Of a stretch of DNA of 64,000 bases, positions 9,623 to 21,866 are shown one piece after another. A program made the position numbers and the translations under genes. Source of the DNA: Actinomycetes bacterium (GTDB taxonomy: Bacteria; Actinomycetota; Acidimicrobiia; Acidimicrobiales; Ilumatobacteraceae); assembly GCA_029782355.1 (NCBI GenBank), contig JAKOUY010000017.1:1-64000 (forward strand), written 5' to 3'. The stretch's first letter is position 1. Every line of letters starts with the position of its first letter. The notes below the pieces were generated by a model, which made no database searches, had not been told where the DNA came from, and saw nothing but the letters and a program-made list of their open reading frames with translations.

Positions 9623-11008
9623 GTGACCGCCAAGATCGTCTCGCCCGTCGACGGCTCGGTCTACGCCGAACGGCATCCCATCGCCGACAGCGATCTGGCC
9701 CGCGCCGTCGCCGAGGCGCTGACCGCCCAGCGGCGCTGGCGTGATGTGGACGTCGCCGACCGTGCCGCCGTGTGCACGGCCGCCGTGGCAGCCATGAATG
9801 CCATGACCGAGCGGATCAGCGAGGAGCTGGCCTGGCAGATGGGCCGCCCGGTGCGCTTCGGGCCGGGCGAGTTGCGGGGCTTCACCGAGCGGGCCACGTA
9901 CATGATCGACGTCGCCGCCGAGGCCCTCGCCCCGGTCCGCCCGCCGGCCCGGCACGGGTTCGACCGGTTCATCCGCCGCGAGCCGCTCGGTCTGGTCCTG
10001 GTGGTCGCCCCGTGGAACTATCCGCTGTTGACCGCGGTCAACAGCATCGTCCCGGCGCTGATGGCCGGCAATGCGGTCCTGCTCAAGCACGCCACGCAGA
10101 CGATGCTGGTCGGCGAACGCTTCCAGGAGGCCTTCGACACCGCCGGTCTGCCGCGTGGTCTGTTCCGCAACGTCGTGCTGACCCACCGCCAGACTGCCGC
10201 GCTGCTCTCGTCCGGGCAGATTGACCAGGTCAACTTCACCGGCTCGGTCGACGGCGGCCGGCAGATGGAGCAGGCCGCAGCCGGCACCTTCACCGGCATC
10301 GGCCTGGAGTTGGGCGGCAAGGATCCGGCTTACGTGCGGGCCGACGCCGATCTGGATCACGCCGTCGAGCAGATCGTCGACGGTGCGTTCTTCAACTCCG
10401 GGCAGTCATGCTGTGGCATCGAGCGGGTCTACGTCCACCGCTCCCGGTTCGACGACTTCGTCGACGCCGCCGCGGCGGCCACCGCTCGGTACGTGCTGGG
10501 CAACCCGCTCGAGCCGGCGACGACGCTGGGCCCGATGGTCAACGGCAAGTCCGCCGATGCCGTGCGCAGCCAGATCAAGGCAGCGATCCACGCCGGCGCC
10601 CGCCAGGTGGTCGATCTCAGCGGCTTCGGACCGGATCGCCACGGCTCGCCGTACCTGGCCCCACAGATCCTGGTCGACGTCGACCACCGCATGAAGGTGA
10701 TGACCGAGGAGAGCTTCGGTCCCGTCGTCGGCATCATGCCCGTCGACGGCGACGACCAGGCCGTGGCGCTGATGAACGACAGCGCCTACGGGCTGTCGGC
10801 CTCGATCTGGACCGCCGACCACGACGCCGCCCTGGCCATCGGCGACCGGCTCGAGACCGGCACGGTCTTCATGAACCGGGCCGACTACCTCGATCCGGCT
10901 CTGGCCTGGACCGGCGTCAAGGACACCGGACGAGGCGTGACGCTGTCGACGGTGGGCTACGAGCACCTGACCCGGGCCAAGAGCTTCCACCTGCGCACGG
11001 AGTGGTAG
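9623..11008 (+). CDS. NAD(P)-dependent aldehyde dehydrogenase
   Basis: The 461-residue enzyme belongs to the aldehyde dehydrogenase superfamily and oxidises an aldehyde to its acid. Visible elements are PWNYPLLTAVNSIVPALMAGN, the NAD-binding NFTGSVDGGRQM, the general-base motif LELGGKDP, the nucleophile in GQSCCGIER near residue 261, and EESFGPVVGIMPV. The start is GTG at 9623, 15 nt after the acyltransferase stop. The substrate cannot be read from sequence; overall similarity is to succinate-semialdehyde and related dehydrogenases. The two genes are on the same strand but share no evident pathway. Confidence 0.93.
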   Translation: MTAKIVSPVDGSVYAERHPIADSDLARAVAEALTAQRRWRDVDVADRAAVCTAAVAAMNAMTERISEELAWQMGRPVRFGPGELRGFTERATYMIDVAAEALAPVRPPARHGFDRFIRREPLGLVLVVAPWNYPLLTAVNSIVPALMAGNAVLLKHATQTMLVGERFQEAFDTAGLPRGLFRNVVLTHRQTAALLSSGQIDQVNFTGSVDGGRQMEQAAAGTFTGIGLELGGKDPAYVRADADLDHAVEQIVDGAFFNSGQSCCGIERVYVHRSRFDDFVDAAAAATARYVLGNPLEPATTLGPMVNGKSADAVRSQIKAAIHAGARQVVDLSGFGPDRHGSPYLAPQILVDVDHRMKVMTEESFGPVVGIMPVDGDDQAVALMNDSAYGLSASIWTADHDAALAIGDRLETGTVFMNRADYLDPALAWTGVKDTGRGVTLSTVGYEHLTRAKSFHLRTEW

Positions 11009-11568: not shown

Positions 11569-13158
11569 CTAGTTGGCGGTGTGCAGCAGGCCGTACACCA
11601 ACGACTCCTCCAGGGCCCGCCACGACGCCTCGATGATGTTCGGGCTGACCCCGATGGTGGTCCAGTCACGCTCCCCGTTGGTGGCGTTGATCAACACCCG
11701 GGTCACGGCCCCGGTGGCCGTCGAGCCGTCGAGGATCCGCACCTTGTAGTCGGTCAGGTGGATGCGGTCGAGTTGCGGGTAGGCGCTGCGCACCGTGGCG
11801 CGCAGGGCCGAGTCGATGGCGTTCACCGGTCCGTTGCCTTCACGGGTGCGCACGAAGCGCTGATCTCCCACCCACACCTTGACCGTGGCCTCGGTGGTGA
11901 ACTCCCCGGTGGCGGTCTCGTCGGTGATCACGCGCATGCTCTCCACCCGGAAGAACGGCTGCTCGAAGCCGGCAGCGCGGCGCATCAACAGCTCCAACGA
12001 GGCATCGGCCGCCTCGAAGTGGAACCCCTCGTGCTCCAACCGCTTCAAGTCGTCGATCACCTGGTTGACGGCTGGCCCGTCCATGGCCAGGCCCAACTCG
12101 GCGGCCTTCATCTGGATGGTGGCCCTGCCTGCCATCTCACTGACCACGAAGCGAGTGCCGTTGCCGACGGTGGCCGGATCGACGTGCTCGTAGGCGTCCT
12201 TGGCCCGGGCGATGGCGCTGACGTGCAGGCCGGCCTTGTGGGCGAAGGCACTCGACCCGACGTAGGGCGCCTGCGGGTTGAGCGGGCGGTTGAGGACCTC
12301 GGCGACGTGATGACTGACCGCCGTCAGCCGCTCCAGGCGACCCTCCGGCAGGCAGCGCATCCCGAGCTTCAGCTCCAGGTTGGGGATCACGGTGGTCAGG
12401 TTGCAGTTCCCGGTGCGCTCACCCAGTCCGTTCAGCGTTCCCTGGACGTGACGCCCGCCGGCGCGCACCGCGGCGATGCTGTTGGCCACCGCGCAGCCGG
12501 TGTCGTCGTGGCAGTGGATCCCCACCACCACGTCACCGCCGACGTGGGCGACCACGGCCGCGACGATGGCCTCGACCTCGTGCGGGAGCGATCCCCCGTT
12601 GGTGTCGCACAGCACCACGTGGCTGGCGCCGCGCACCACGGCCGCCTCCAGGGCACGCAGGCTGAACTCCGGGTTGCGCTTGAAGCCGTCGAAGAAGTGC
12701 TCCATGTCGACCATCACCCGCCGGCCGGCGCCGGCCAGGAACGCCACCGAGTCGGCGATCATCGCCTCGCCCTCGTCCAGGGTGGTCTGCAGGGCCTCGG
12801 TGACCTGGTAGTCCCAGCTCTTGGCGACGATGCACACCGTGCCCGTGCCGGCCTCGATCAGGTTGCGCAACGTGGCATCGTCGTCGACCCGGCCACGCGG
12901 CCGCCGGGTGGAGCCGAAGGCGACGAGGGCCGAGGCGTCGAGGCGCAGCTCGGTGGCGGCACGGGCGAAGAACTCGACGTCTTTCGGGTTGGCCCCGGGC
13001 CAGCCCCCTTCGATGTAGTGCACGCCGAGGCGGTCGAGCTGCTCGGCGATGCGCAGCTTGTCGTCCACCGTGGCGGACACGCCCTCGACCTGCATGCCGT
13101 CGCGCAACGTGGTGTCGAAGACCTCGACGACGGTGGCGGAGCTCGGTGGGGTTGGCAT
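11569..13158 (-). CDS. cimA: (R)-citramalate synthase
   Basis: The enzyme condenses pyruvate and acetyl-CoA to citramalate, the first step of the threonine-independent isoleucine route, continued by LeuCD and LeuB. It shows the DRE-TIM signature VFDTTLRDGMQVEGVS near the N-terminus, GWPGANPKD, the metal-binding HCHDDTGCAVANS and QGTLNGLGERTGNCNL. A C-terminal LeuA-type allosteric domain follows (about 400-529). The GWPG and GERTGNCNL patterns are those of citramalate synthase and not of 2-isopropylmalate synthase. The ATG at 13158 has a GAGGAA ribosome site. A further in-frame ATG at 13188 is less likely because it overlaps the leader hairpin. The gene is preceded by an Ile/Val-rich leader peptide. 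Confidence 0.93.
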   Translation of the reverse strand: MPTPPSSATVVEVFDTTLRDGMQVEGVSATVDDKLRIAEQLDRLGVHYIEGGWPGANPKDVEFFARAATELRLDASALVAFGSTRRPRGRVDDDATLRNLIEAGTGTVCIVAKSWDYQVTEALQTTLDEGEAMIADSVAFLAGAGRRVMVDMEHFFDGFKRNPEFSLRALEAAVVRGASHVVLCDTNGGSLPHEVEAIVAAVVAHVGGDVVVGIHCHDDTGCAVANSIAAVRAGGRHVQGTLNGLGERTGNCNLTTVIPNLELKLGMRCLPEGRLERLTAVSHHVAEVLNRPLNPQAPYVGSSAFAHKAGLHVSAIARAKDAYEHVDPATVGNGTRFVVSEMAGRATIQMKAAELGLAMDGPAVNQVIDDLKRLEHEGFHFEAADASLELLMRRAAGFEQPFFRVESMRVITDETATGEFTTEATVKVWVGDQRFVRTREGNGPVNAIDSALRATVRSAYPQLDRIHLTDYKVRILDGSTATGAVTRVLINATNGERDWTTIGVSPNIIEASWRALEESLVYGLLHTAN

Positions 13159-13188
13159 CGTTCCTCGGTTCTCAGGGCAGAAATGCAA

Positions 13189-13238
13189 CAGCCGCCCGAC
13201 CGGGCGGCTGCAAGCGCACGACGTGGGGCGTCGTGCGC
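13189..13238 (-). promoter_or_regulatory. Attenuator-like double hairpin in the cimA leader
   Basis: On the minus strand, a perfect 10-bp hairpin (GCGCACGACG, loop CCCCA; 13238-13214) begins at the last base of the leader-peptide stop codon. It is followed by a second 9-bp hairpin (CAGCCGCCC, loop GGTC; 13210-13189), then TTGCATTTCT. The second could act as a terminator with a weak U-tract. Its loop region CGGTCGG is complementary to CCGACCG inside the leader-peptide coding sequence, so an alternative fold is possible. The hairpins and stop position are seen; the switching mechanism is inferred. Confidence 0.6.
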
Positions 13239-13285
13239 TACGGAATGACGATGATCGCCGCGGTCGGAGCGAGGGCGTCGATCAC
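13238..13285 (-). CDS. Leader peptide of cimA (MIDALAPTAAIIVIP)
   Basis: A GTG-initiated 15-codon frame encodes MIDALAPTAAIIVIP, with four consecutive Ile/Val codons (ATC ATC GTC ATT) just before the final Pro and the TAG. It starts 7 nt after the putative -10 hexamer, so translation would begin at or within a base or two of the 5' end of the RNA. Ile/Val clusters placed immediately before a hairpin are the hallmark of branched-chain amino-acid attenuators, known upstream of ilv and leu genes in actinobacteria. Here the gene controlled is cimA, the entry step to isoleucine. The reading frame is too short for conventional gene calling. Confidence 0.65.
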   Translation of the reverse strand: MIDALAPTAAIIVIP

Positions 13286-13292
13286 CCGGCCT

Positions 13293-13321
13293 ATTCAATC
13301 GGTGCCACTCTCCGCCGTCAA
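13293..13321 (-). promoter_or_regulatory. Putative cimA promoter
   Basis: Reading the minus strand, TTGACG (13321 to 13316) and TTGAAT (13298 to 13293) are separated by exactly 17 bp, and the leader-peptide GTG follows 7 nt later. The -35 is a near match to TTGACA and the -10 fits T-N4-T. This places the transcript start at or next to the leader GTG. Confidence 0.6.
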
Positions 13322-13335
13322 CCGCGGCGATGAAC

Positions 13336-20855: not shown

Positions 20856-21866
20856 TCAGCCTGCCACGGCGGCGGCCAGACGGCCACCGATCTGGCGAGT
20901 GGTACCGGTACCAGGGTCGGCGGCGCAGGCGGCGCGGATCCGCTCGGCGGCAGCGCCCTCCCCGAGGAAGTCCACCATCAGCGCGGCGCTCAGCACGGCC
21001 GCGGTGGGGTTGGCCTTGCCGGTGCCGACGATGTCGGGCGCCGACCCGTGCACCGGCTCGAACATCGACGGACCGGTGCGCGCCGGGTTGAGGTTCGCCG
21101 AGGAGGCCAGACCGATCCCTCCGGACACCGCCCCGCCCAGGTCGGTGAGGATGTCCCCGAACAGGTTGTCGGTGACGATCACGTCGTAGCGCTGCGGATC
21201 CTGGACGAAGTAGATGCAGGCCGCGTCGACGTGGTTGTAGGCCGTGGCCACCTGGGGGAACTCGGCGGCCACGGCGTGGAATGCCCGCTGCCACAGGTCG
21301 CCGGCGAAGGTCAGCACGTTCGTCTTGTGCACCAGGGTGACGTGGCGGCGGCGAGTCATGGCCAGCTCGAAGGCGTAGCGGCAGGCCCGCTCGGCGCCCA
21401 TCCAGGTGTTCACCGACCCCTGGGTGGCGACCTCGTGCACCGTGCCCTTGCGCAGCACCCCACCCTCGCCGACGTAGGGACCCTCGGTGTTCTCACGGAT
21501 GACGACGAAGTCGTGGGCCACCGTCGATCCGGGTGCAGTCCCGACGAAGGGTCGCTGGTTGACGTACAGGTCGAGCTCGAAGCGCATCTTCAGCAGCAGC
21601 CCACGCTCGATCACCCCGGGCGGGACCTCCGGCGTGCCGACGGCGCCCAGCAGGATGGCATCGAAGCCGCGCAGCCGCTCGAGGGTCTCGTCGGACAGGA
21701 TCTCCCCGTCGCGCAGGTAGCGGGACCCACCGAGGTCGAAGTCGGTCAGCTCCAGCTGCACGCCGGCGGCCTGCACGACCCGGATTGCCTCCGCCGTCAC
21801 CTCCGGGCCGATGCCGTCGCCACCGATGACGGCGATGCGGTGGGTCGGGGTGCTGGATGGGGCCAT
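20856..21866 (-). CDS. leuB: 3-isopropylmalate dehydrogenase
   Basis: The 336-residue NAD-dependent decarboxylating dehydrogenase converts 3-isopropylmalate to 2-oxoisocaproate, and also erythro-3-methylmalate to 2-oxobutyrate in the citramalate route. It shows [30 protein letters not shown], the metal-binding [20 protein letters not shown] and [18 protein letters not shown]. The ATG at 21866 is preferred to codons upstream because the catalytic fold starts at residue 9. It is divergent from greA across a 37-bp gap and precedes ilvE. Confidence 0.96.

Follow-up and report, generated by a model that had tools for sequence, protein, structure and literature searches.

Directly upstream of cimA, the citramalate synthase gene, the 64,000-nucleotide stretch of Ilumatobacteraceae DNA analysed here (the window) very probably carries an isoleucine-responsive, ribosome-mediated transcription attenuator that would sense charged tRNA-Ile. 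The basis for this reading is the sequence itself, that is, the parts of the element, their conservation and covariation, the choice of codons in the leader and the geometry of its two hairpins, and from these we infer the transcript start, termination and ribosome stalling at the cimA leader. The attenuator had already been recognised in a preliminary description of this DNA and stands, supported by the Ile codons, the covariation and the gene association found in relatives, but two things had gone unnoticed: the element belongs to a wider set found before leuB, ilvB and cimA, and it has no antiterminator that overlaps the terminator.

The cimA leader and its parts

The promoter, the leaderless 15-codon peptide, the hairpin at its stop codon and the second hairpin before the cimA ribosome site, all named in the preliminary description, were found, and every one of them lies on the minus strand, which had been left unstated (Table 1). 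The first base of hairpin 1 is the A of the leader stop codon UAG, and a single base (13212) separates hairpin 1 from the predicted terminator. The two hairpins are exact inverted repeats of 11 nt (hairpin 1) and 10 nt (terminator), and both are contained in the fold of the leader RNA (z = -5.06, equalled by 0 of 200 shuffles). The T-run TGCATTTCT is poorer in the window than in most relatives. The product of the downstream gene scores 663.8 bits against the citramalate synthase model, which has a cut-off of 450. Judged by the spacing between the -10 hexamer and the start codon, the transcript of the cimA leader is predicted to be leaderless.

Table 1. Parts of the cimA leader region, in the order of transcription
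Feature	Positions	Strand	Remarks
-35 hexamer, TTGACG	13316..13321	-	read from sequence
-10 hexamer, TTGAAT	13293..13298	-	17-nt spacer from -35; 7 nt to start codon
Leader ORF, GTG start, 15 codons MIDALAPTAAIIVIP	13238..13285	-	stop UAG at 13240-13238
Control codons ATC ATC GTC ATT	13255-13244	-	within leader ORF, which ends A-I-I-V-I-P-UAG
Hairpin 1, perfect 11 bp, arms AGCGCACGACG/CGTCGTGCGCT	13213..13239	-	proposed antiterminator
Intrinsic terminator stem-loop (predicted), 10 bp	13188..13211	-	inverted repeat and fold
T-rich terminator tail, TGCATTTCT	13179..13187	-	TTTCATTT or similar kept in relatives
Shine-Dalgarno-like GAGGAA of cimA	13161..13166	-	sequence
cimA, citramalate synthase, putative regulated gene	11569..13158	-	ATG at 13158; TIGR00977

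A simple promoter scan of the window did not list the cimA leader promoter, because the second base of TTGAAT is not the A expected of a -10 hexamer. The terminator-like site of the leader was listed by the same scan, which found 2 such sites where shuffles led to an expected 1.2, roughly the same rate. The promoter is also flanked by a perfect 11-nt inverted repeat, ATCGCCGCGGT/ACCGCGGCGAT (13254-13264 and 13321-13331), one arm of which lies inside the leader ORF while the other touches the -35 box; it may be a DNA-level dyad spanning the promoter, or it may be due to chance.

Conservation and codon choice before cimA

A search for CimA across 200 genomes from the window's family gave a match in 196. 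All 29 loci fetched from relatives, like the window, have an ORF with a run of branched-chain amino acid (BCAA) codons, mostly Ile, followed by UAG, a hairpin and a terminator, and the covariance model R1 was built from those 30 sequences. Of 80 named cimA loci, 58 carry the element according to R1 (57 whole and one cut by a contig end); several of the 80 are apparently the same contigs as in the first set (L003-L031). At the other 22 loci cimA follows directly on the end of an ilvE-like gene, inside an operon; these ends were recognised by eye from a common C-terminal coding sequence, and an NCBIfam check of ilvE was run on one ilvE of the same kind, in relative L103. The element is thus present where cimA has an upstream region of its own and absent where cimA is internal to an operon, and relatives that lack the leader and its hairpins, which the preliminary description would have taken as evidence against an attenuator, are confined to these 22 loci behind ilvE. 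Desertimonas flava (L188) carries the element and keeps the stem with other bases.

Compensatory changes, a check that had been proposed, were found in both hairpins. In A3, a model-fitted alignment of 55 distinct rows that include two weak minus-strand matches, 90.3% of cells pair and 13 of the 20 stem pairs are altered on both sides (9/11 in hairpin 1, 4/9 in the terminator), with the proviso that these counts, like all others given here, ignore common ancestry. The covariation score of A3 is 0.231 vs 0.098 in shuffles, none of 500 of which reaches it, and slid versions of the alignment score at most 0.055; these values are to be read in the knowledge that model-fitted alignments lean towards the model and that related rows are counted many times. 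In the MAFFT alignment A2 the score is 0.146 vs 0.067 in shuffles, and five pairs change on both sides, a number that 51 of 500 shuffles also reach.

The leader peptides tell the same story at the level of codons. Among 62 cimA-class leaders (a set that includes duplicates, with 43 distinct arm sets, and excludes two minus-strand L150 matches and the cut L210), isoleucine stands at codon -2, counted from the stop, in all 62, at -4 in 60, at -3 in 56 and at -5 in 55, and over the final six codons of these leaders 233 of 372 residues are isoleucine, so the Ile codons that the preliminary description had wished to see conserved are indeed kept. The stop is UAG in 62/62 cimA leaders and in 121 of 125 leaders overall, vs only 6 of the 27 cimA genes for which a stop was found. 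ATT accounts for 110 of the 233 leader Ile codons vs 41/662 in 28 cimA genes, and for 2/101 in six genes of the window; among Val codons, GTA has a share of 25/1400 in those 28 cimA genes, vs 25/45 in leuB leaders and 41/56 in ilvB leaders. The control codons of the leaders are therefore codons that these genomes avoid. The N-termini of the leaders are unconserved, the control codons alone being kept; the amino-acid codon run is present in 62/62 cimA leaders, and its translation is predicted. Upstream, TTGAC is found at -35 in 46/62 cimA-class elements, whose promoters score 7.95 on average vs 5.33 with shuffled upstream bases, and the start codon follows 6-9 nt after the -10 hexamer in most elements (61/62 in the cimA class), a spacing that points to leaderless transcripts.

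Hairpin geometry and the proposed switch

How might translation of so short a peptide decide whether cimA is transcribed? Footprinting places the downstream edge of a ribosome 12 nt past the A-site codon's first base, and this edge was used as a footprint model. The 5' arm of hairpin 1 ends at most 12 nt from the first base of the stop codon in 54/61 cimA, 33/34 leuB and 22/28 ilvB elements (L156 and L086, with one hairpin each, are excluded from the footprint and spacing counts). A ribosome would leave free 98-100% of the hairpin 1 pairs when at codon -5 or -4, 47-49% at -2 and 0-6% at the stop; in this model a stall at the most invariant position, codon -2, would cost hairpin 1 about half of its pairs, which speaks against the attenuator reading. 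The footprint geometry of hairpin 1 is that of a classical antiterminator. The second hairpin has the features of an intrinsic terminator, with a GC stem, covariation and a T-rich tail between the leader ORF and the gene, and termination there is predicted; the downstream genes cimA, leuB and ilvB make the amino acids that would be sensed.

We propose that transcription would start at the leader GTG and that a ribosome would immediately translate the leaderless transcript. When isoleucine is plentiful, this ribosome would reach UAG, where its footprint would cover the entire 5' arm of hairpin 1; with hairpin 1 blocked, the terminator would fold and RNA polymerase would halt before cimA. With isoleucine scarce, the ribosome would stall on the Ile codons, hairpin 1 would fold directly ahead of it and, placed 0-6 nt from the terminator, would hinder the terminator so that cimA is transcribed.

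What the element does not have is a base-sharing antiterminator formed on stalling, and it is not a three-way switch of the classical kind. In the predicted folds hairpin 1 and the terminator have no common bases; hairpin 1 merely abuts, at a distance of 0-6 nt in 123/123 two-hairpin elements (61 cimA, 34 leuB and 28 ilvB). An antiterminator overlapping the terminator was not found by folding, pairing, arm energies or stem extension. When the first 16 nt after the stop were removed and the rest refolded, the terminator still formed in 30/30 A2 sequences, and contiguous extension takes hairpin 1 into the terminator in 1/123 elements and the terminator into hairpin 1 in 7/123. Pairing between the 3' arm of hairpin 1 and the 5' arm of the terminator has a mean energy of -3.0 (cimA), -4.4 (leuB) and -2.0 (ilvB) kcal/mol, terminator energies being -16.5 to -17.8 kcal/mol; this pairing is weaker than with shuffled 3' arms, and native arms do better than swapped ones in 21/43 cimA, 7/30 leuB and 7/27 ilvB elements. 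It is weak and not selected. In the E. coli controls the terminator 5' arm is sequestered at best to 0.71 (trp), 0.89 (thr) and 0.67 (leu) when the ribosome is stalled and to 0.0 when it is at the stop; in the elements here the values are 0.01-0.10 for a stall at -5/-4, and 0.49 (cimA and leuB) or 0.23 (ilvB) at the stop, so that the polarity is opposite. In equilibrium folding the terminator wins nearly regardless of ribosome position, a limit of the method, in which it wins in the E. coli controls too. Two further ideas were dropped: loop 1 as a copy of the terminator 5' arm was seen, by eye, in one or two sequences only, and a second pairing role for GCGCACG in hairpin 1 was given up because L159 and L188 keep the stem with other bases and because terminators differ among the cimA, leuB and ilvB classes.

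Since there is no overlap, and the pairing is weak and unselected, hairpin 1 is proposed to hinder the terminator by closeness. That it opposes the terminator by abutting, rather than through common bases, is plausible, if a little short of probable. The corresponding general statement, that an order-wide family of BCAA attenuators (cimA, leuB-ilvE-cimA and ilvB) has a terminator that the ribosome switches through a neighbouring hairpin with no bases in common, one that sterically crowds the terminator at the polymerase exit and does not act by alternative base pairing, is put forward as a tentative possibility. Side-by-side hairpins without overlap would cast doubt on the requirement for mutually exclusive folds in switches of this type, an issue open to simple reporter constructs.

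Hairpin 1 has also to be considered as an anti-antiterminator, for which the ilvBNC leader of C. glutamicum, described with such a hairpin in the accessible part of PMC11857589, offers a model: a ribosome on its 5' arm would free the 3' arm to pair with the terminator 5' arm and block termination, and when the ribosome leaves quickly hairpin 1 would re-form and the terminator would work. In keeping with this scheme, a stall at codon -2, the most invariant Ile, brings the predicted pairing of the cimA-class terminator 5' arm up to 0.44. The pairing on which it depends is nevertheless weak, no better than with swapped arms and worse than with shuffled ones, and a ribosome at the stop would yield the same state as a stalled ribosome; we consider the scheme quite unlikely. 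Pause hairpins belong to classical attenuators, and hairpin 1 could be a mere pausing or synchronising hairpin for RNA polymerase, with the switch elsewhere (Rho, a protein or ribosome-polymerase contact). An arriving ribosome would melt hairpin 1, which does not compete with the terminator for base pairs, as would be expected of a pause signal; but neither the 0-6 nt spacing in the 61, 34 and 28 elements nor the agreement between the 5' arm and the stretch that a ribosome at the stop would cover would then be explained, and this reading seems unlikely.

Leaderless short ORFs that work in other modes are reportedly present in mycobacteria, as described by Canestrari in 2020, and by analogy the translated leader might act on cimA translation or RNA stability, or the peptide might be functional in itself, the second hairpin being no terminator. 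It would then be surprising that the second hairpin is GC-rich, covaries, has a T-rich stretch behind it in almost every relative and lies upstream of the cimA ribosome site rather than over it, and a functional peptide is hard to square with unconserved N-termini; such a role is highly improbable. There is, finally, a vanishingly small chance that inverted repeats and an ORF came together by accident: high-GC sequence often folds and terminator-like sites occur near the shuffle rate, but conservation in relatives, covariation, codon choice and gene association refute it.

Known attenuators and the wider set of leaders

The nearest precedent, as far as the available portion of PMC11857589 describes it, is the C. 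glutamicum ilvBNC leader. It is likewise actinobacterial: its transcript begins at the start codon or immediately beside it, GUA is among its BCAA control codons, it has a premature terminator, and it places antiterminator and terminator hairpins side by side. There, however, the hairpins overlap by a GCC trinucleotide, whereas no common boundary bases were found when tested here, and here the targets are cimA (and leuB), with cimA leaders reading mainly Ile. The M. tuberculosis ilvB1 leader (accessible text of PMC13236596) resembles the element in having a uORF with LVVI regulatory codons before the ilv operon, a Rho-independent terminator and a fold decided by what a ribosome at the stop codon covers, but its antiterminator and terminator are mutually exclusive and its target is ilvB. 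The E. coli trp, thr and leu attenuators share control codons before the stop of a leader peptide, a structure set by ribosome position and an intrinsic terminator, but their antiterminator overlaps the terminator 5' arm, as none does here. The ilvB-II and ilvB-OMG motifs of Corynebacterium, in the part of PMC10272879 consulted, also have uORFs with BCAA codons before ilvB, but concern other genes and taxa.

The accessible part of Seliverstov 2005 (PMC1262725) describes actinobacterial leaders for trp, cys, ilvB, leuS, trpS and leuA, with attenuator components missing in many cases, and those for cimA and leuB are not among them; the available portions of PMC2965389 and PMC8632094 mention no cimA element. 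The openly licensed literature yielded no leader-peptide attenuator for cimA or leuB and none of this kind in Acidimicrobi- or Ilumatobacter-. Rfam 15 at gathering thresholds matched nothing in the window except two tRNAs, and Rfam up to E = 1 matched nothing in L032, T-box domains being absent; the only row among the elements searched was L046 to Hrs13 (E = 0.82, 18.3 bits vs a gathering threshold of 52), which is at chance level. If the present reading is true, citramalate synthase would here have its first described leader-peptide attenuator, as far as the openly licensed literature searched shows, charged tRNA-Ile would directly control the route into isoleucine through cimA, and related attenuators with pathway-matched codons would exist in an order whose regulation is little studied.

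Sampling of the order gave R1 matches at E <= 0.1 in 90/148 genomes; outside the order but within the class, 1/8 genomes has one, and beyond the class nothing convincing was found phylum-wide. Matches there occur in 8/31 genomes (E 5e-4 to 1e-2); seven (L128, L130-L135) were taken as chance, with no cimA, leuB or ilvB adjoining, and the eighth, G488, has no locus. By downstream gene, 69 elements divide into cimA (5), leuB (35), ilvB (28) and none (1), with the gene confirmed for 34/35 of the leuB class (33 by blastp and L081 separately, L073 being unconfirmed) and 27/28 of the ilvB class (L075 runs off its contig), and NCBIfam run on 10 of the 69 downstream proteins; L087 (E = 0.067), with no downstream family match, is excluded from the classes. 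The leaders read mainly Ile in the cimA class, Val/Ile in the leuB class and Leu/Val/Ile in the ilvB class, where many end LVVIT-UAG with an adjacent hairpin. In many elements of the leuB class (L039-L101) the terminator stem ACCGTCCAC...GTGGGCGGT has a central U-G wobble.

In 7/8 larger stretches fetched, leuB is followed by cimA within about 1 kb, with ilvE between them in L103, and the leuB element heads leuB-ilvE-cimA; from this order, the cimA leader of the window's family occupies the place of the leuB leader of other families. Unlike leuB in the order's remaining families, that of the window (20874-21845, minus strand) has no leader or attenuator upstream; it has a TAGCAT box resembling a -10 hexamer, and its ATG is probably leaderless. 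Elsewhere in the same genome, a threonine ammonia-lyase-like gene (C7:572624-573742) scores 348.8 bits, below the cut-off of 378.75, and with such a gene present cimA may not be the sole entry to isoleucine. The LeuA of L104 as query found nothing in the window's genome at 1e-60. The genome's ilvB, on another contig (L111 1345-1450), is preceded by MRAPTPISALLVVIV-UAG, reading LLVVIV, then a hairpin and a terminator. In L104 itself, leuA (NF002086) is preceded at about 10015-10135 by the leader MTRSPITTSLLLT, ending LLLT, with a hairpin at the stop codon and then a terminator, and this arrangement of stop-codon hairpin plus terminator may extend to the order's amino acid genes in general.
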